Assembly (NCBI GenBank): GCA_010093485.1
Contig: MU001513.1
Coordinates: 323,696 to 387,695 of the forward strand
DNA from: Karstenula rhodostoma CBS 690.94
Taxonomy: Eukaryota; Ascomycota; Dothideomycetes; Pleosporales; Didymosphaeriaceae
Direction of reading: 5' to 3'
DNA: 64,000 nt
This document shows, piece by piece, positions 18,096 to 64,000 of the stretch. The position numbers and the translations under genes were made by a program. The notes under the pieces were generated by a model. It saw only the letters and a list, made by a program, of their open reading frames with translations, had not been told where the DNA came from and did not search any database. Positions within the stretch are counted from its first letter, which is position 1, and each line of letters opens with the position of its first letter.

Positions 18096-19647
18096 CTAGC
18101 TCCGGAACAGCATCAAGCCTTGCTCCGCAGCATCCACTGCATCCTCGTCCTCGCTCACGACCTCGTCCTGCTCGCCTAGTGCAAGGCGCTGCCCAAACAG
18201 GCTGGTGAACAGCTCATCCCGCTGCCGCTCGCCCCAAAGCCCTCTCTGCTCTGGCGCCATGAAATTCTGCAGCTTCTCGTGCACCGTGTATCGCAGTCGT
18301 CGCCCTTTGCTGGCTTTTGTGTCGACAATCTTCTTCGTCTTCGCTTCGCGCGCCACCTGCCATGGGGCCTGCACAACGAACTCGGCCGTGCCGCTGTTGG
18401 ACAGCTCGGCGGACCGTTGCTCGAGGAGCTCCTTCAACAGCAGCCCGTAGAAGTCGGCGTCGTCATAGATGTTGGCATCCGGCAACGGCTTGGAGGATGC
18501 CGACTGGACGGGGGCACATGAGCGGGGCGTCTGTGTTCGCGCGACGAGATGGGTCGAGTTGGTGAGCTGGGAGTCGAGCACCTCTGTCAAAGTCTGCTCG
18601 GCGCTGACATTTAGCTGGCGCTGAGCAGTTGCAATCTTTGCGGTCCGTGTCTTCGCAGACCATTTTTCCATGACGGCTCTCCTTTGCTTCTTTGCCGCGC
18701 TCTCGTCAGCGCGCAGGCTGTCCCAAATCTCAGATGAAGCGGTCGAGGATGTGAAAGGTGCCCGCTTGCGCTTTTCGCCCGTACGCGCCTCCTCGATCGA
18801 CGCTCGGAGGCCCGTGAGGTTGTTCAGGAGCGTCAATGCTGCGGCCTCGGCGGCCTCAACCGACGCAGTAGGTGCAGATTCGTCTTTGTGGTCTTCAGCG
18901 ACCATGGAGTTGGTCGAGATGAGCGCCTTCTGCAAGCGCACTCGGGTGTTGAGGAAAGAATCGAATGTCTTGCGCTGAGTCTTTATTGCTTGACCTTTCG
19001 CAACGTCGGATTGCGCGGCGGCGGCGAGGCTGGTGGTGAGCGACTTCTGGTCCTTCATCAACTCGCGGACGTCTTCCTTGTTCTTGCTCATGAGCGCCCT
19101 CGTTTCAGCCGCGTCATTGCCATCCTCGTCATCGTCGGATGCACTTTCGGAGTCAGCCTCGTCATCTTCCTCTGCGCCGTCCATGTCCATGTCCATGTCC
19201 TCGTCCGAGCCGTGCTCTTCGTCTCCAGATTCATCCCCGTCTTCTTCATCGCTCCCCGAACCTAGTGCTTCTGGAGCTGCTCCATTTTCAAGCTCAACTT
19301 CGCTGTCATCATCATCGTCGCTGCCACTACCGCCCTCGTCGAAGCGCTTCGCAAATGGGTCGTCGCTGTCCTCGTCTTCTACGGCGTTGCGGCTAACCTG
19401 GGTGCCGGTGTACTGGGGACCTAAAGGAACAACCTCCTTCTTTCTGAGCTTGCTTTTCCCAACATCTGCGTAGTGCTCGCGACCGGCATTGTCGTCCTCC
19501 GCGCCCGAGGAATCGGCGTTTTCGTCTTCACTGGAGCTTGACGGCGCCGGGTCGAGCAGCGCCTCGGGATCAAAGTCTGCGCGGAAAAGTCAGACATGAT
19601 CTGCAAGCCATGTGCATGCCCTTACCTGTGATTTTCGATTTCTTCAT
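18096..19647 (-). CDS. BFR2: BFR2/AATF ribosome-biogenesis protein
   Basis: A 22-nt first exon (19647..19626, MKKSKIT) is joined by a 49-nt GTAAGG/CAG intron to 19576..18096, giving 500 residues. The N-terminal 180 residues are acidic (runs of Asp/Glu, with DMDMDMDG coded by a short GACATG repeat). The middle contains the AATF/Che-1 domain with KGQAIKTQRKTFDSFLNTRVRLQKALI and EIWDSLR. The C terminus carries the TRAUB domain beginning at IYDDADFYGLLLKELLEQR and followed by KLQNFMAPE. In yeast Bfr2 is an essential nucleolar factor of the small-subunit processome and AATF is its animal counterpart; the same nucleolar role is expected. It is divergent from IND1 with only 165 bp between start codons. 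Confidence 0.93.
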
Positions 19648-23625: not shown

Positions 23626-23698
23626 TGGTCAGACAAGCACTGAGTTTTGCCGCGACCTGCCCAAGCTCGTGAAGTATCACATTTGGTCAGACAAGCAC
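23626..23698 (+). mobile_element. Short retroposon-like insertion, copy 1, with target-site duplication
   Basis: TGGTCAGACAAGCAC occurs at 23626-23640 and again, identical, at 23684-23698. The 43-45 bp between them start TGAGTTTTGCCGCG and end GAAGTATCACATTTG, sharing the 3' end with three other copies in the window. It is the shortest copy. It has no terminal inverted repeat and no coding capacity. Confidence 0.8.
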
Positions 23699-24888: not shown

Positions 24889-24965
24889 GGAGGATGTTTC
24901 TCAAATATGATACTTCGCGAGCTTCTGGAAGCCGCGAAAAAACACAGTAAAGGGAGGATGTTTCT
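24889..24965 (-). mobile_element. Short retroposon-like insertion, copy 2, in the PNPOx-like gene leader
   Basis: GGAGGATGTTTCT occurs at 24889-24901 and, identical, at 24953-24965. The 51-bp insert (24902-24952), read on the minus strand, starts CTTTACTGTGTTTT and ends GAAGTATCATATTTG, the family 3' end. The nearer duplication copy lies just before the ACC of the start-codon context, so the insert is in the probable 5' UTR. Confidence 0.85.
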
Positions 24966-25618: not shown

Positions 25619-25700
25619 TGACCGTGCCAGGGGTCGAACCTGGAATCTCTTGATTACATGTGGATCGTAGTCAAGCGCCTTGCCATTGGGCCACACGGCC
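25619..25700 (-). tRNA. tRNA-Arg(ACG) with a 10-nt intron
   Basis: The minus strand folds into a full cloverleaf. The acceptor stem is GGCCGTG with CACGGTC (one G-U pair), the D stem is GCC/GGC, the anticodon stem is CTTGA/TCAAG, the variable loop is AGATT, and the T stem is CCAGG/CCTGG around TTCGACC. The anticodon loop is CTACGA, then 10 extra bases (TCCACATGTA, positions 25655-25664), then A. Removing these at the canonical 37/38 intron site leaves the 7-nt loop CTACGAA with anticodon ACG, read as arginine (CGN box; A34 becomes inosine). Position 25619 supplies the discriminator base. CCA is not encoded, as is normal in eukaryotes. Confidence 0.92.
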
Positions 25701-33474: not shown

Positions 33475-34796
33475 GACACCCGCATTCCCCCGAACCCCGA
33501 ACTCAAAACCCCTCCACTTGTAAGTTCTTCCACTGTCCAGCGAGGCCCACCGACGAGAGAGTGCACGCTCAACTCGGTGGGTGGGCACCAGATAACTAGG
33601 AGGGAACGCCTAGTTTGACGGTGCCTTTCGCTGGACGTGGAAGGATGTGCGAGTGGGGGGCGTGGATCGGCCGGCTTCGGGGAATGTCAGCGGGTCTGGT
33701 AGCACAGATGGGACTTCATTCACGGTTTAGACTTTCGGCACACCACTACGGCATCTGGGTTTTGTTCAGTTTCCACTTTTCATGTCGAGTTTTTATAGCT
33801 GTCTGACAGATTTTTCTCCGGAACAGCTATGGTTTTGCGTTTGTGTTAATTTCGTTGTGGATTTCGTGGAGTTCTTCTCATCGGTGCTTTCAAAACATTC
33901 TCATGGTTCATGCGACATATGGGGATCCCGGGGCCGTGGAAGATAATAAGCAGACGCCCGTGGGTGCCCGTACATATGAAACGAGGGTTTATCAGGCGTT
34001 TTATACCCCATCTCAATGTTCGATAGACAAAATAATAATAAATGACGTTGCATTGAGAAGCAGTGCTACACCCTGATGATTGAAACTTATTGATCGTGGA
34101 ACGATGTCTACTGAGATAGGCTCCTTGACATGGTGGGTGATAATGAACACTCCAAAAGGACCCTCCTGATTCACGAGTCGTCTGAGATATCCATAGCTCG
34201 CTGAGCATTAGTTGAGCTTCTTCCACATTTCCACTGCTGGAAAATTCGTATAGGTAGGAGCCTTTGCGTGTTGTTCATCGCTTTTGCTATTCTTAATGTA
34301 TAATGCAGTGCGCAACATATCTATACGAGCATACTAGATCAGGAGTCTGTTGGGCTGGGTAACCCAGGGAGCCGGCTCTGTAGAGGAGCGGCGCGTTGCT
34401 GGAGCTTGGGTGAGCATACTAGAGGAAGCAAAGGTCTTAAGCAGAACGAGACAGTATATCTCTGCCACTTTCTCCCTTCTGTTCATTCGAAGAAATTGTC
34501 TAGAGAAAATACAAAATTATATCTCGGACAGAACTGAAGCATGCGAACATTCTCAGTTGATGGGCCTATATGCCGAACTTGACAAACCGGAGTAGCTCAC
34601 AACATCTTCTGCGCTGGTTGGTTCTGTCTGTCTGTCGGTGAAGCTGAGTTGCGTGACCTCTTCCACATTCATTGCGCCAACACAAAGGCGGCTAGCGTAT
34701 AACCTCAGATTATATGCATCATTCAACAACACCCGTTTGACACCTCTTCTTGATACTCAAATCTTTGCGCACCGCAAAACCCGAATACGTTCTACC
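33475..34796. other. Intergenic region with a dispersed-repeat copy
   Basis: No supportable gene. Positions about 33915-33962 match 25310-25357 in the same orientation. The right end contains the leader of the RRM gene; an open frame there lacks an ATG until 34797. Confidence 0.5.
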
Positions 34797-36137
34797 ATGC
34801 CTCGCGGCGAGAAGGTCGCGTTGGGTGAGATTAGCGCACCAGAAGATCGTGTAATTCGCGTCAACAATCTCCATTGGGATGCTACAAACGCGAATATCAC
34901 TCGATTCTTCAGAGGTTACGGCCTCGTAGACTGGAAGCGCTCCGTCAACGTCAAAAGCGGTAAGTCAACCGTCGCCTATGTCCTTTTAAGCACCCTTGAG
35001 AACGTCGTTCGGGCAATCGAAGAGCTCGATGTGAAGGTGCTATTGGGTCGTCAAGTCCGGATCATGCGGGCAAAGGGAGGCTTTCAGCGTAAGTTGAATA
35101 TCGTGAGAGCGAAAGCAAATACCACTGATTCTGTTTGTGCAGTCACACCCTCGGGGCTTCTCAACCTCGAAAAACCTGGCCACGCGGTCACCGTCGACAA
35201 ACACCTTAGATCACCTGCTCTCGCAAAAGAATCGGCCATGGATCCCGAATCCCAGGTTATGTCGTTCCCACCTCTCACTGGCACCTCGCAAGCTCAGGCC
35301 GCCCGTGGAGCCTCCCTGCGCCGTTCCCGTATCCCGCCACCCGCCCTCATCGAAAGCGACGAGCACCGCTCTATGAAGATGTTCCAATCTCGCCGCAGCC
35401 GCTTTCAGCCTGGCCCCCAAGGCCCAGAGCACCGAGTACTCCTCATCAGCAAGCTCCATCCCGATGCAAACCGGAACGCCGTGGAGCTCTTCTTCCAGGG
35501 GTTCCGCGTAGTCGACTACAAGCGCAAGTACAACGATCGCATTGGCAGGTACAACAGCACCGCCTTCGTTCTCTTCGAGTCGGTCGAGGAGCGCGATCGT
35601 GCACGATACATGAAGCAAGGACATAAGATTCTCGGCAGGGAAGTCAGCTTGGACATCGCGACTAGGGGCATTCGCGTTGGCAACAACGGCTTCCTGCTGG
35701 ACAACACGTCTGAGATCGCCTCACCGCCGAGGCTTCCTCTCGCGTATGGGGCTGAACGACTCGGCAACGACTTCCCTTCTCCCTCGGCCACGTACCCGTC
35801 GAGCGATCCTCGATCGGAGACTGATCGCATCGCCTATCACCCTCAGAAGTGGGTGCAACCCGATATCAGCACCAACAACCTCGAACAGACTACGAACATT
35901 GTTCAGCAAGCCACCCCACCCGCGCAGATTTCCAGCCACTACCTAGCACCCAACCATCATCACGAGGCAGATGGCGGACAGCCAATTCCTCCGTACGATA
36001 TGTTGAGCGAGGTGCTTCTCCCCACAAACATCCAGAGGACGCCTCGTCGTGGCCTCAGGCCTTGGAACCTCGCCGGCAACAACAGCGAGGACAAGCGATA
36101 TAACGTGGTCACCGAGACGGAGTGGTATGAATTCTAG
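34797..36137 (+). CDS. Two-RRM RNA-binding protein
   Basis: Preferred model has exons 34797..35088 and 35143..36137 (428 residues). The 54-nt intron (GTAAGT, CTGAT branch-like site, TGTGCAG) is frame-neutral and stop-free, so a 446-residue unspliced form is also possible. RRM1 is at about residues 16-98: RVIRVNNLHWDATNANITRFF (RNP2 region) and KSTVAYVLLSTLENVVRAIEEL (RNP1 region). RRM2 is at about 192-270: HRVLLISKLHPDANRNAVELFF and YNSTAFVLFESVEERDRARY. Both RNP1 cores are degenerate, lacking the usual aromatic pair, so RNA affinity may be low or atypical. The tail is disordered and rich in Pro, Ser and Gln. The ORF stays open upstream to 34638 but without an ATG. A short mobile insertion directly follows the stop codon (see findings for a possible alternative 3' exon). 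Confidence 0.78.
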   Translation: MPRGEKVALGEISAPEDRVIRVNNLHWDATNANITRFFRGYGLVDWKRSVNVKSGKSTVAYVLLSTLENVVRAIEELDVKVLLGRQVRIMRAKGGFQRKLNIVRAKANTTDSVCAVTPSGLLNLEKPGHAVTVDKHLRSPALAKESAMDPESQVMSFPPLTGTSQAQAARGASLRRSRIPPPALIESDEHRSMKMFQSRRSRFQPGPQGPEHRVLLISKLHPDANRNAVELFFQGFRVVDYKRKYNDRIGRYNSTAFVLFESVEERDRARYMKQGHKILGREVSLDIATRGIRVGNNGFLLDNTSEIASPPRLPLAYGAERLGNDFPSPSATYPSSDPRSETDRIAYHPQKWVQPDISTNNLEQTTNIVQQATPPAQISSHYLAPNHHHEADGGQPIPPYDMLSEVLLPTNIQRTPRRGLRPWNLAGNNSEDKRYNVVTETEWYEF

Positions 36138-36146
36138 TAAGTACTT

Positions 36147-36230
36147 CAAAGAAATTGCCCGAGTTCCTTTACTGTGTTTTGCCGCGGCTTGCCCGAGCGC
36201 GCGAAGTATCAAATTTGACAAAGAGCTTGC
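36147..36230 (+). mobile_element. Short retroposon-like insertion, copy 3, behind the RRM gene stop
   Basis: CAAAGAAATTGC (36147-36158) and CAAAGAGCTTGC (36219-36230) form an imperfect 12-bp duplication (10 of 12 identical). The insert of about 60 bp starts CCGAGTTCCTTTACTGTG and ends GCGAAGTATCAAATTTG, the family 3' end. It begins 10 bp after the stop codon at 36135-36137. Confidence 0.75.
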
Positions 36231-55760: not shown

Positions 55761-56604
55761 AACTCAAGTGCTCTTGGGGTTCCTATAATGCAAGTCTTAT
55801 TGTTTATAATAAACAAAGTAAGGAAGTAAACTATTATAGTAGAGCTTCTATATAGCTAGCTAAACCTTAGGTCTATATATTACCTAATTAGGATACTTTT
55901 TTTAAGCCTTCTTATTAGCTAAAAAAAAGCTATTTAAGCGTTTTAATTAGCTCTTAAAACGCGATATAATAATATTAATCTAGGCTAGGAAAATCTAAAC
56001 TAGGCCTAATTAGGAAATCTAAAATATTAAAATTACTAAGTAAACTTTTCTCTTTAAATAGAACTAAAAATTATATTTCTAGCTTTAATAATAATTAAGT
56101 TATAGCTATTTCTAGTTTTATAGTAATAAATACTAAGATTTAATTACCTAAATAGGAAGTTTAGATATCTAAGTATTTTAAAAGTCTAAATATATCTACT
56201 CTTTAAGCCCTATTTAATAGTATAAATATTATAGTTCTAGATTATATAATTATTAAGATATTTAAGATTTAAACTTTCTAGATTTTTTTTAAAATCTTTA
56301 AGTATATTTAAAAATATTAACTACTTAGAAAAAAAAATATTATAAATTACTATTAAATTATACTACTAACTATAAGTAGTTTAGTCTAGAAACTATTATA
56401 ATTAGGTAATTAAATAAAAAGTTATAAAGTATTAAAATATAGAGTTCTACTAAAAATTATCTCTATAAAAAATAATAAATTTAATATTAGGTTTTTACTA
56501 AAATATTATATTAGTATTAACCTAATATCTATATTAGAAAGAAAAATTATAGTACCTTTTATTACTTACTTATTTAATAGTTTTATTCTTTTAACTATTC
56601 TTAA

Positions 56605-56905
56605 TTATTTTTAATCTATACTTACTTAAAACTATATATATTTATAGTATATTCTATTATATTTAATACTTTTATAGTATAATATACCTAGGAGTTTATT
56701 TATATTTAAAAATTATTTTAAAAACTATATTATTTAGCTTAATATAAACGTTTTATTTATAAATATCTATATTTCTATAATTTATAAAAAATAGATATTT
56801 TATAATATATTATTTATTTAAAATATATATTTAAGGTATATAATATATTTAAAGTAGATAATTTAAATATACTATACTTCTAAATTTAAGAACTTTTAAA
56901 ATTTA
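56605..56905 (+). repeat. Long direct repeat, copy 1 (about 300 bp)
   Basis: Matches 58380-58705 in the same orientation. Shared landmarks in order are ACTTAAAACTAT, AGTATATTCTATTATATTTAAT, TTTATATTTAAAAATTA, TTTATTTATAAATATCTA and TTTAAGGTATATAATATA. The spacing of about 1.78 kb would suit terminal repeats of a small element or a segmental duplication. Confidence 0.75.
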
Positions 56906-58116
56906 ATAGCTAGTATTAGTTAGTTACCTCTTTATTTATTTATTTAGAATCCTTACTTTATTAAGTTAAGTTTATTTAATTACTATCTTTCCCTAGAACT
57001 AGTTATTAAAATCTATTAAAAGCTACTAATTATAACTAGATACTAGTTAACTATATTATAATCCTTATTATCTTATTTTACTATTAATATAATACTAAAC
57101 TCCTATATTTAGTATTTTATAATTAAATACTATATACCCCTATTACTATTATTAAATACTAACTATATATAGCTATTATTCCTATTTTTATTTTTTATTC
57201 TTTATTTTTTATCTTTTATATATTACCTTATAGGCTCTATACTTAGGATTTAGAATAAAACTTAAAACTCCTTTACTATTACTATTACTATTATCTATAC
57301 CTATACTATTATACTATATAAAATCTCCTATATTTAGTAAATATTTATCTTATTACCTATTACTTTTATTATAAACTTTTTATTCTCCTTAGTTTTTTTT
57401 TTATTATTATAATAATTTTATATATTCTATATTTCTTATTACTATAGTATATATTTATAGCTAGGAAATAATAGATATTATATTACTAGCTAATCTAATT
57501 TATATAGTTTAAATACTTCCTTTATACCTATATATATTTTAGATTTAAATCCTAGCTAGCTCTTAACTTTCTAGATATTATAACTATTACCTATTATTAC
57601 TATTATTATTTAAATATTTTTACTATACTTTTTTACTTTATTATAGGTATTAGTTATTAGTATTTCTAAATAGATAGTAGGGAATAAGTATATTACTACC
57701 TATATAGGTTTATTAGTTAGGTTAATTCTAAGGTATAAGTAATATATTAATAAATTTAAAACTATAAATATTATACTATATTATTAAGTAGGATTTATAG
57801 TATACTAGGGATAGGTATTTTACTTATATTCTTTTCTCTTCTTATATATATACTATTAATAACTAATAGAATATAGAATAAAAGAAAGTAATATAGATAA
57901 TAGTACTTATCTATATATATTTTTCTCTTAGTTTTAATAAGAACTATTCTTTTTAATACCTTATTAACTCTTTATTATTAGATTTTTTATATATTAGTAG
58001 GTATATACTAAGTCTATTTTAATTAGCTTAGTATTATACTCTTTTTAATTAGCCTATATATAGATACTAAATAAGTTTTAATTACTTTTTTAGTTTCCCT
58101 TTATTTATATATTAGT

Positions 58117-58190
58117 AAAGTATAATATACCTTTTTATCCCTTTTACTTTATTAATTTACCTACCCTTATAGTAATTATATATAATATAA
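58117..58190 (+). repeat. Left copy of a candidate terminal inverted repeat
   Basis: AAAGTATAATATAC, TTTTATCCC, CTTTATTAATTTACC and CCCTTATAGTAATTATATA recur in this order on the opposite strand at about 61790-61875. A TA dinucleotide precedes the motif on both outer sides. Confidence 0.6.
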
Positions 58191-58309
58191 GATTTAATTA
58201 ATATACTATTTTTATTAATATATCTTTTTTTTTCTTTAAATATATACTATAATTCCTATAATAAGCTATTTAATAATACTTTATTAGTATATCTAGAGTT
58301 TAATACTTA

Positions 58310-58375
58310 AAGTAATAACTAAACTAATATCTAAACTAATATCTAGACTAATATATATATTAATATCTAGACTAA
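58310..58375 (+). repeat. 12-bp minisatellite, unit TAATATCTARAC
   Basis: Several adjacent units such as CTAATATCTAAA and CTAATATCTAGA occur here, and again at about 58805-58860. Confidence 0.65.
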
Positions 58376-58379
58376 TATT

Positions 58380-58705
58380 TATTTTAATCTCTATTTACTT
58401 AAAACTATTTTTATTTATAGTATATTCTATTATATTTAATCTTTTTATAGTATATTATATCTAGTACTCTATTTATATTTAAAAATTACTTTAAAAGTTT
58501 TATTATTTAGCTAAATATAAATATTTTATTTATAAATATCTAGATTTCTATAACTTAAAGAAATATAGATATTTTCTAATATACTATTTATCTAAAAAAT
58601 ATATTTAAGGTATATAATATAATTAAAATATAAAGTTACTTTATTTATATTTTTAAAATAGTTAATTTAAATATATTATATTTTTAAATTTAAAAACTTT
58701 TTTAA
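58380..58705 (+). repeat. Long direct repeat, copy 2
   Basis: Second copy of the repeat at 56605-56905. It is preceded by a cluster of TAATATCTARAC units (58310-58375), which recurs after it at 58805-58860. Confidence 0.75.
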
Positions 58706-59310
58706 ATTTATTTATATACTATCTTTATTACTATATCCCTTTTTTACTTAAATATATAATATAATTTCTATATTATATTACTTAATTATATTTTATTAGT
58801 ATAGTTATAGTCTAATATCTAGACTAATATCTAAACTAATACTTAAACTAATATCTAGTCTATATTATAAAAGATTTTTATTTTACTAGTATATATAAAT
58901 AGCTAGTATAGTCCTATATACACTTATATATAATTATATATACTAGATACCCTAGATATACTAGTTAGCCCTATATTTTTATAGGTATATATATATAAGA
59001 ATATATATAAATATACTATAATATTACTTTAGATATCTAAGATATCTAGGGTATCTAAGGTATTTAGAATATTTAGATAGCCTTTATATATATTTAGTAA
59101 GTAGCTTAATAAGTAGCTTAGTAAGTAAAAAAATTCTTAACTTAAAGTTTTAAAACTTTAAAAGCCTTACTACTATATAATAGTATAATAGATTATATAT
59201 ACTAGTATTCTATATAGAAATTTTACCTTAACCTAAAATATAATATTTTATTATATTAAAAATATAAAAAATATAGTTTTATATTATATTTAAAGAACTA
59301 GAATAGATAA

Positions 59311-59956
59311 AAACTAGTAACTTAATAAAGAAAATAATTATAATTATAGTAGAACTAGGCTAGAAGAAAGAAAGAAATTATATATAAAATATTAGTAATA
59401 GAAATAAAACTAATAGGTACTTATATATAAGTCTATAGAGTAGCTTAGATTATAAATTATTAAATATAATACTTCGCGAACTTAGGTAAGCCGCGCTAAA
59501 ACTTAATAAAGGAACTTAGTAGGGTACTAAAATATAAAGATTATAAATTATATAACTATAATTCTATTAAAAGTATAAAATTTTAAAAGTATTAGGTTTT
59601 AGTAAAAATAGAATAAATACTCCTATTAAGAGAATAGAATCTATAAAAATAAACTAGAGGATTCTAAAATAATAAGAATTAAAATAATTAATATATAATT
59701 TAAAAAAATCTCTATATAGTTCTAATTTTTTATAATTAATTTAAGATATTATTTAGAAATAGTTTATTTTTATATCTAAATTAAAATATTTTATATCTAT
59801 ATAAATACTTAGTCTTTTCTTAATATTATTATATTATATATTATTATAATATAAAATATTTATCTATTTCTTTATATAGCCTTTATTATATTTTATTTTT
59901 TAAATAATTCTTAAGATATAGATTTTAGTTAGATATATAGAAAACCCCTTATAATA
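59311..59956 (+). repeat. Left arm of a large inverted repeat
   Basis: Read as its reverse complement, this segment matches 61153-61706 along its whole length. The inner ends read AAAACCCCTTATAATA on both sides. It is about 91 bp longer than the right arm because it carries the short retroposon insertion plus its 14-bp duplication. Confidence 0.88.
59447..59551 (-). mobile_element. Short retroposon-like insertion, copy 4, inside the inverted-repeat arm
   Basis: AGATTATAAATTAT occurs at 59447-59460 and at 59538-59551. The 77-bp insert (59461-59537), read on the minus strand, contains AAGTTCCTTTATTAAG, GCGCGGCTTACC and TTCGCGAAGTATTATATTTA, the family 3' end with RIP-like changes. It is the longest copy. 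The matching position in the right arm has a single uninterrupted target sequence. Confidence 0.88.
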
Positions 59957-61152
59957 CTTTAATTATTTAAGAATTTAAATTAATATAGTAATACTATCTA
60001 GCTTAGTAGTATCTAAAATAGTAACTAGAAACTTAACTTCTAGTTCTATAATAAATCTAGTTATAGTACTAGCTACTTAGACTAATAAAATCTAATAACT
60101 TAGAGAGTAATTAATAAAATTTATAAATAAGGAGATAGTATTAGTAGTATAAATACTAAAAGTTAATTTTAAAATTTTAGAGCTCTTTAATAGAAATAAG
60201 ACTAGACTTAAAATCTTTCTAATAAATATAAAATTATATTATTAATATAATAGTTATATATTTAGAAATAACTATACTAAGGTTTTAGCTATTAGAATAT
60301 ATATAAAAGGGAGAGCTATAGAATAACTATAGCCCCTAATTAAGAATTACCTTAAATATAAAGAAATTCTAAAGAAATAGAAAATAGAAATAAAAAAGGC
60401 CTTTAAATTCTAAAATATTTTTAAAAAGTAGATCTAAGTAATATTTAGAGAGATAGATAAGAAATAATAAATAGAGTATTTTATTTAATATTTTAAATAA
60501 ACTAGATTTATTAGTAAATATTTAACTATATTTAGATAACTCTAAATAAAGATTAATTAAAATAATATTTTACTCTAGATAGTATACTATAATAGACTAA
60601 AAGAAATAGTTAAAGATAAACTAATTTACTATAATAAATCTAACTCTTTAAAAAATCTAATTAAGTTAACTATATAAATAGATAATAGACTATATAAGTA
60701 ATAACTAAAAAAGAAAAAATTAAATAGACTAGTATATAGCTAGAAAGCTAATATATAGAAACTATATTATAAGTAAAAAAATTATAATAGAAATATAATA
60801 ATAAAAAATAAAACCTATAAAAAAAAAACCTATAATAAAAAAAGTAGAATAATACCTAATAATAATATTTTAAGGATAGGGCTTATTTAAACTATAGAGA
60901 GAAGAAATACTTTAAAGCTAAATATTTTTCTAGAAAGTTCTAAAATAAATAAGCCTAAATAATAAAAATAGCTATAATAATACTATAGTTTAAAACCCCT
61001 ATACTATTATAAGGGAATATTATAAATAATAAATTTAAAATATTAAAACTACTAATAGAAGTCTAGAAGATAACTAATAAAAAGGATATTATAAAATAAA
61101 TTCTATAAGATTAGTATTAGGTATATAGTAAAGAAGATTACTATATATTAGA

Positions 61153-61706
61153 TATTATAAGGGGTTTTCTATATACCTAACTAAAATCTATACCTTAAGA
61201 ATTATTTAAAGAATAAAATATAATAAAAACTATATAAAGAGATAGGTAAATATTCTATATTATAATAATATATAATATAATAGTATTAAAAGAAAACTAA
61301 GTATTTATATAAATATAAAATACTTTAATTTAAATATAAAAGTAAACTACTTTTAAATAATATTTTAAATTAATTATAAAGAATAGGAACTATATAGAAA
61401 TCTTTCTAGATTATATACTAATTATTTTAATTCTTACTATTTTAGAATTTTTTAGTCTACTTCTATAAATCCTATTTTCTTAGTAGAAGTATCTATTCTA
61501 TTCTTATTAAAATCTAATACTTTTAGAATTTTATACCTTTAATAGAATTATAATTATATAATTTATAATTTAAGCTATTTTATAGACTTATATATAAGTA
61601 TTTATTAGTTTTATCTCTATTATTAATATTTTATATATAATTCCTTTTTTCCTTTTAGTCTAATTCTATTATAATTATAATATTATCTTCCCTTTTAGAG
61701 TTATTA
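61153..61706 (-). repeat. Right arm of the large inverted repeat
   Basis: Length about 554 bp, against about 555 bp for the left arm after subtracting the insertion. The arms enclose a loop of about 1.2 kb (59957-61152). Confidence 0.88.
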
Positions 61707-61789
61707 TTCTAATATCCTATTATTATCTTATAGCCTATTATTATAGTATAGTTTAGAAATATAAAGATTTATTTTTTTATACCTTTAGA

Positions 61790-61875
61790 TATATATTATA
61801 TATAATTACTATAAGGGCGGGTAAATTAATAAAGCTAGGGGGATAAAAAATATATTATACTTTATCCTTTAGATA
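61790..61875 (-). repeat. Right copy of a candidate terminal inverted repeat
   Basis: Inverted match to 58117-58190. It contains GGGCGGGTAAATTAATAAAG and one of the few surviving CG dinucleotides of the block. Confidence 0.6.
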
Positions 61876-64000
61876 TAATATTATATTCTCCTCTAGATTT
61901 TCTAAATTTCCCTAACTATATCTAAAATACTAAAATAATTATTAACTAATTATTATTATACTTATACTAATAAAGTTTATTATTATAGTCTAGTAATACT
62001 AATAAACTATACTTATTATATAGAAAAAAAGGTTCTAAAGTATTTTTAAATACTTTAATTAGAGAGTATATTATATATATTACTATTTATATAGAGTATA
62101 GTCTTTAGATTCCTAAAAAAGAGTAGAAATATATTTAATTTAAAAAATATAAAAAGTATTTTATTTTTCTTTATACTAAGACTAAAGTTACTTCTCTAAG
62201 AATAGAGATTATAGAGATAAAAAAATAGAAGTAGTTATTTATAACTTATAATATTTATATATTTAATATACTAAATTATTTAGAAAAAAGGATTTTAAAA
62301 AGTATAAATACTAGTACTATTTCTATATTACTACTATATAGACCTTTAACTAATCTAGACTAATTATAGGCTAATTTTTTTATTATTAATCCTTTTATCT
62401 TTTCTAATTTATTTTCTAATTTTAGGCTAATATTCTTATTAACTAACCTTTTTAAGATTAATTTTTTACTATTAACTAGTAGAAGTCCTTTAATAGTTTT
62501 TTATAATTTATTAGATTTCTTTTTAGTTTTTAAGTATTATACTATTCTATTTATTCTTTTTATTTAATTAGATATTTTTATTAATTCTTAATTATTTATA
62601 GATTTTTAATTACTTTAACCTTATACTTATTATCTTCTAACTCTAGTTAGGTTTTAATTAAAGTATTTAAAGATACTAGTTTTAAAAGTAATTTATAAAA
62701 AATAGAATATATCTTTATATCTATTAATAGAAGTAGCTTAGTTATAACTAGTCCTTTTATTTCTTAAACTTTAAAGGGTTCTATCTAAAAATAATCTAGT
62801 TTCTTACTTAGTTATTTTATTTTTAAATTTTTCTATAATAGGAAAACTTTATTCTTTTTTTTAAAAATTAGTTTTTTAATTCTTTATTTATTTATATTCT
62901 TAAATACTATAAGGGCTCTATAGGTAATTCTTTTCTATAGGACTTTATAAAATTCCTTTATTTTCTAAACTTTATTTTAAACTCTAGTAGAAATACTTTC
63001 TATATTTTTTAAATTTTAATAAATAACTAGCTTATATTTATAGTTTATATAGTAGGGTAAGTATTCTATTATACTTAACCTTAAGCTATTATATACTAAC
63101 TATATAATTAGTAAAAGTTTTACTTAATTATTTTATTATTTATTAATATAGAATTATAGATATTACTTAAGTATCTAGTTTATATATTTTATTTATTTAT
63201 CTATTTTAAGGTAGAAGCTTATTAATAACTTTTAGTTTATTTCTAGAGCTATAGTAAAAGTATTCTAATATTTTAAAATAAAGAATTTATTTTTATTTAT
63301 AATAAATTCTTTTAGTAATCTATATTTAGAAAATAGTATATTATTTACTTTATAGACTAGTTTTTTTACTATTATAGACTTTTCTATAGATTTAAATTTA
63401 GCTATCTTTATAAATCTATATATTATTACTATAATAGTATTATATATATACTTTATTTCTAGCTATAGTAATTTTAGAAGTTTTATAATAAAATCTATTA
63501 TTATACTTTACTATAGTTATTTTACTATAGGTAGTAGTTATAGAAGTTTATAAGGTATATATCTCTTAGACTTATTTTTTTAGTAAGCTAAATAGTTACT
63601 TATCTCTATTATAACTAATTACTTAAGCTTAAGGATAATATATTTATTTATAATATAATATATTATTTCTTTAATATCTAAGTATTCCTATTTTTTTAAT
63701 TTATATAGTTTTCTAATTAGAATAGATATATATTTTTTATTAATAATAATCCTTTATTAGTAGTCTTATCTAGTTTTATTAAAACTATACTTAAAAAGAT
63801 TATATTTCTCTTTCTAGTTTTAATTAAATTTCTAGTAATTTTAAAAGTTTTATATTTCTAGTTTTATATACCTTAGACTAGCTATTTATACTCTAATTTT
63901 TAATTAATTATACTTAAGTATATTATCTTTATATTTATATAATATTATATTATATAGCTTAACTTTATTCTTAGTTAAGTTTAATTATCTACTTAAAGTA

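Follow-up and report, generated by a model that had tools for sequence, protein, structure and literature searches.

The closest described systems come from other fungi and from known SINE/LINE pairs. Mg-SINE of Magnaporthe, whose partner LINE is MGL, is a non-autonomous retroposon whose 3' end has been proposed to imitate that of the LINE, and related chimeric inserts in Magnaporthe carry direct repeats of 10-20 bp and 5'-truncated parts (PMC2104539, in excerpt). The AfuSINEs of Aspergillus fumigatus, according to the excerpted text of PMC5063351, comprise a tRNA type of 140-493 bp and a 5S type of 259-343 bp, are present in few copies, and have target-site duplications in the tRNA-related families. 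In stringent-type SINE/LINE pairs the 3' end is specific, is not poly(A), and is predicted to form a stem-loop (excerpt of PMC3747384). The introner-like elements of Dothideomycetes are short, near-identical and present in many copies (excerpt of PMC4457414).

The family reported here, from Karstenula rhodostoma CBS 690.94, shares features with each of them. As in the excerpted account of Mg-SINE and MGL, it is a non-autonomous fungal retroposon with direct repeats and 5' truncation, but 51 of its 65 duplication-backed copies are 100 bp or shorter and no partner LINE was found; this comparison is by description only (PMC2104539). Like the tRNA-related AfuSINEs it makes duplications, but it has hundreds of copies, its unit does not exceed about 250 bp, and neither a tRNA nor a 5S head was detected (PMC5063351, in excerpt). 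It has the specific non-poly(A) 3' end and predicted stem-loop of the stringent-type pairs, whereas the LINE half was not found (PMC3747384, in excerpt). Unlike the introner-like elements, as far as the excerpt of PMC4457414 describes them, its insert ends have no common splice boundaries. A report describing this family was not found in our literature search, and the excerpts of PMC4112212 and PMC6710886 had no bearing on it. We consider that the family is probably an undescribed LINE-dependent, non-autonomous, SINE-like retroposon, which is non-coding and has a longest unit of about 250 bp.

The genome contains 44,326,383 bases in 29 contigs, and the window, i.e. the whole 64-kb stretch that was analysed, covers positions 323696-387695 of contig C22. 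The open reading frame 18096-19196 (minus strand) of the window encodes a protein that matches one of K. rhodostoma CBS 690.94 at 100% identity. Four inserts had been claimed in it by a preliminary description made from the letters alone, and all of them were found again. Insert 1 (23641..23685, plus strand, 45 bp, nearest to subfamily C) is flanked by the repeat TGGTCAGACAAGCAC, whose 5' copy (23626..23640, scored by script) and 3' copy (23684..23698) are identical at 15/15 bases; the first two bases of the repeat, TG, are also part of the insert end. Insert 2 (24902..24952, minus strand, 51 bp, nearest to subfamily E) is flanked by AGAAACATCCTCC, 13/13 identical, at 24889..24901 next to its 3' end and at 24953..24965 next to its 5' end (scored by script). 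An ATG on the minus strand lies 16 bp downstream of insert 2, as read by eye. Insert 3 (36159..36217, plus strand, ending at 36217 here) belongs to the young subfamily A, from which it shows a single difference over the last 60 bases, placed at the 5' edge. The open reading frame 34638-36137 ends 21 bp ahead of it. Its duplication (36147..36158 and 36219..36230) matches at 10/12 bases by eye, and the top score given by the script was only 6. Insert 4 (59461..59537, minus strand, 77 bp) has a 14/14 duplication, with one copy adjoining its 3' end (59447..59460) and the other its 5' end (59538..59551, scored by script); this is weak evidence because the surrounding DNA has about 16% GC and the repeat is AT-rich. 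The four flanking repeats thus matched the identities given before, with these limits on the 10/12 by eye and on the 14/14 in AT-rich DNA. For two of the four inserts, a start or stop codon was seen by eye no more than about 20 bp away. When the 18-base 3' end was searched with up to 3 mismatches, the window gave 4 matches, and 100 dinucleotide shuffles gave 0.03 on average and never reached 4. A tRNA gene (Rfam) is located at 25619-25700 on the minus strand of the window, about 0.7 kb from insert 2.

A genome-wide search for the shared 3' end, which had been proposed earlier as a check, yielded hundreds of matches. Tail A (GCGAAGTATCAWATTTG, 17 bases, up to 2 mismatches) was matched 392 times and its reversed-pattern control 3 times. 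The same body also occurs with a second 3' tail, tail B. This one (GCGAAGAGTCAACAATC, up to 2 mismatches) was matched 200 times (control 2), so that the two tails together amount to roughly 590 in the genome. The other parts of the element gave 378 matches for a 17-base core (up to 1 mismatch), 132 for a 31-base upstream body (up to 3 mismatches) and 16 for the farthest 5' block of 35 bases (up to 3 mismatches), and the control was 0 for all three. For 101 distinct tails (90 of tail A and 11 of tail B) there was enough flanking DNA to read them. They form a chosen sample and not a random one: L001-L030 were those most similar to insert 3, L031-L060 were the first 30 loci with an exact tail when taken by contig order, L061-L090 have exact 5' bodies, and L091-L102 and L106-L110 were fetched as long copies. 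Tail B was seen in L061, L063, L081, L082 and L086, and the copies carrying it look older.

Duplications were scored as length minus 3 per mismatch, and a score of at least 11 was called strong. As a control, the 3' flank of one copy was paired with the upstream DNA of another. Our results showed a strong duplication in 65/101 copies (62/90 with tail A and 3/11 with tail B) and in 0/199 mispaired controls, so the consistent duplications that the preliminary description had expected of true insertions are frequent. Their length was 13-15 bp in 56/65 cases, with a full range of 12-19. Several of the 36/101 copies without a strong duplication have a weaker one, including insert 3; L049 and the minus-strand match in L061, both lacking a strong one, may be chance matches. 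The 65 duplication-backed inserts measured 29-246 bp with a median of 92 bp, and 22 of them fell between 90 and 96 bp, a pile-up inflated by the choice of L061-L090. For the tail A copies in L031-L060 (repeats of earlier loci removed, neighbouring copies counted), the duplication score was at least 9 in 21/29, and the lengths were 29-148 with a median of 81.

The two ends of the inserts behaved differently. The 3' junction fell at the identical base in 48/65 duplication-backed copies and the 5' ends were many, so that lengths differ at one end only, as had been claimed. On the first-nick side a T|A step was preferred, with A at +1 in 55/65 and T at -1 in 40/65 against a background of about 0.26 each, and the base composition on the second-nick side was near background in the same 65 copies. 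The A belongs to the target and is not merely the last base of the insert, because the scoring demanded that the first duplicated base match in both copies. In 13/65 copies the duplication begins within the last two bases of the tail, which we interpret as expected if the nicked primer base-pairs with the end of the RNA. The constant 3' end, the variable 5' ends, the duplications and the one-sided T|A preference are the signature of target-primed reverse transcription, and this part of the preliminary description is well supported. With hundreds of insertions, some down to 29 bp with exact duplications, the starting and stopping points of a reverse transcriptase can be followed unusually cleanly in this family.

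The following course of insertion is proposed. The 3' end of the RNA, formed by the predicted hairpin CGCG-GCUU-NNNN-RAGC-K-CGCG and then AAGUAUCAWAUUUG, would be recognised in trans by the reverse transcriptase of a LINE. The LINE endonuclease would nick the bottom strand opposite T|A, and the nicked end would prime cDNA synthesis starting at the RNA 3' end. Synthesis would mostly halt after 30-150 nt, which would leave 5'-truncated stubs and duplications of 13-15 bp. The role of the hairpin, the LINE and the promoter are the parts of this scheme that we infer.

The hairpin CGCGGCTT-NNNN-RAGC-K-CGCG is predicted at the 3' end, where each of its 8 pairs is kept in 34-38 of 39 distinct sequences, a tally that left out sequences under an 11/21 match. 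The 4-base loop varies by subfamily (GCCC, CCAG, GCAA). Using ViennaRNA, the hairpin was drawn for subfamilies A and B, was placed inside a longer stem for C, and gave way to another fold for D. The predicted energy was no better than that of mononucleotide shuffles (z 0.11 to -0.97), and the stem contains wobble pairs with no clear compensatory change seen. From this prediction, it is plausible that the tail hairpin serves as a recognition element.

The longest duplication-backed copy, L106, is 246 bp long in a search that reached 300 bp upstream. L107 begins alike, with CCGAATTGTGAGCGCC, which gives a unit of about 250 bp; its start is taken as the point where the match to L106 ends, and no duplication above the threshold was found for it. 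Shorter long copies are L108 (221 bp), L099 (193 bp) and L109 (183 bp). By eye, L057, L092 and L101 have clean internal deletions, perhaps made when the reverse transcriptase jumped. All three forward frames of L106 contain stops, in line with the earlier statement that the element has no coding capacity. Taken alone, the 3' 96 bases have one open frame. Six loci that hold long copies were compared with Rfam; no match was obtained with E values up to 5, and no tRNA, 5S or 7SL head was found there. Of the A and B boxes of RNA polymerase III, which had been suggested as something to look for, a B-box-like stretch, GATCGAAT, was noticed by eye and no A box was seen. If the family is SINE-like, an RNA of about 250 nt from CCGAATTG to TTTGA is expected.

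The preliminary description had left the choice between 5'-truncated LINE ends and a mini-SINE. Our data lean to the SINE-like side, on account of the maximum of about 250 bp, the common start of L106 and L107 and the lack of a LINE body in 83 upstream regions; against it, no Pol III head was found, nor a master LINE among the LINE stretches read. Since the head that a SINE should have was looked for without success, and a LINE tail is unproven, the family was not classed as a SINE.

In the strongest competing explanation, the source of the copies is an autonomous LINE, or the transcript of another gene, and what was inserted is its 5'-truncated 3' end. The full-length copies would have been lost, destroyed or as yet unread, and the reverse transcriptase would drop off very early. 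The junction anatomy would be identical. One frame is open over 32 codons in all five subfamily sequences compiled here, and 8/13 variable columns (among the first 84) fall at third codon positions, but this bias is weak, the frame was picked afterwards, and a search with the peptide found no homologue, the candidates being only proteins of similar length. The duplication-backed copies end at 246 bp in a search that reached farther, and L106 and L107 have the same first bases, although the start of L107 comes without a duplication. In an all-against-all comparison on the plus strand, no common LINE body emerged from the 83 upstream regions, which measured up to 1.3 kb each; two pairs were the same stretch, and 10 further plus-strand matches measured 34-100 bp. 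We regard truncation of a LINE as unlikely on balance.

The search for a partner LINE gave 105 matches to the RVT_1 profile in the genome, most of them with several stops. The C4 and C20 LINEs have matches of about 750 bp; most of the stop-ridden matches span about 360-480 bp and, judging from this, are probably LTR elements. Four loci are LINE-like (C4, C20, C17 and C26). A native tail was not found in the stretches that were read of the C4, C20 and C17 LINE loci (L103-L105). The L103 LINE has a long open EN-RT frame of 1263 aa, and no other part of the genome matches its 3' 616 bases. The partner may be the C26 LINE or the C17 LINE past the stretch read, or it may have been lost or mutated beyond recognition.

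Two retroposon inserts were observed in L103 (888-1000 and 5018-5080), one directly behind the final frame and one near the start of the EN-RT frame. The C4 LINE was rejected as native owner of the tail, since the tail copy behind its final frame has a 13-base duplication of its own (11/13). The second insert has a 15/15 duplication by eye, and both are read as ordinary insertions.

The copy L095 (C17:1027300-1027590, minus strand) contains 47 bases, GTAAGT...CTAAT...TTACAG, that look like an intron, between ...GGGCAATGATC and CGCTGGAGGAGG... Five copies, L044, L053, L092, L093 and L096, run uninterrupted across this point and are similar on its left side, with 2-5 mismatches in 28. The duplication score of L095 was 5 with short flanks only, which is not strong. 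There are two readings: that L095 is an unspliced source, or a copy of one, and the remaining copies derive from spliced RNA, or that L095 has gained an intron. The exact lack of the stretch in similar copies suggests that the retroposon may pass through an RNA stage. In favour of the truncated-LINE explanation, L095 and the C17 LINE share a strand, and the copy sits about 2.7 kb past the last long frame of this LINE. The intron-like stretch itself leaves the odds of the two leading readings unchanged, because an RNA stage is common to both.

Signs of host mutation were also quantified. C>T changes were counted in 83/101 copies, namely those that agree with their own subfamily in 50 or more of the last 60 columns; stubs under 60 bp include some flank, and the rates are understated for copies picked by similarity. 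The counts were 23/536 at CpA, 34/1020 at CpG, 14/417 at CpC and 17/557 at CpT, so that an excess at CpA was absent. Among the differences of insert 4 from subfamily C, 16/17 were C>T or G>A, and this insert lies inside an AT-rich block (window positions 56000-64000, 14-17% GC), which is consistent with heavy repeat-induced mutation. Of the copies with long flanks, 87/89 are in DNA above 35% GC, a proportion from which strongly mutated copies would be missed by the patterns used. Repeat-induced mutation requires repeats of some hundred bases. That the copies escape repeat-induced point mutation by their shortness is a hypothesis that fits. Larger repeats appear eroded by this process, and the family would be a testable case of survival by being too short to recognise.

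A fuller version of the SINE-like reading can be offered tentatively. The retroposon would lack a head of the tRNA, 5S or 7SL type, and no LINE specific to the family would survive. It would persist under strong repeat-induced mutation in this genome since its copies are shorter than the defence can sense, so that being short would be its means of survival. Its source may have been a locus with an intron, such as L095, and the exchangeable tails A and B would fit different reverse transcriptases.

The introner-like alternative mentioned earlier, i.e. invasive spliceosomal introns, is suggested by small, near-identical copies in a dothideomycete, a class in which such elements are described (excerpt of PMC4457414), but it is very improbable: GT..AG placement is possible in only 4/65 duplication-backed inserts, the 5' ends vary, and the sole exception, the intron-like stretch of L095, sits within the unit and is not the unit. 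A cut-and-paste, MITE-like DNA element or a satellite spread by recombination would likewise give short, dispersed, non-coding copies, but it is highly unlikely given duplications that are not of fixed length (12-19), a single fixed end and a junction preference at one end; a DNA element was rejected on the variable 5' ends with matching duplications.

At C13:918600-919100, two pieces of the element, one 5' and one 3' (L110 and L015), lie in opposite orientation about 200 bp apart. Their flanking repeat occurs as an inverted repeat, which perhaps reflects an inversion after insertion.
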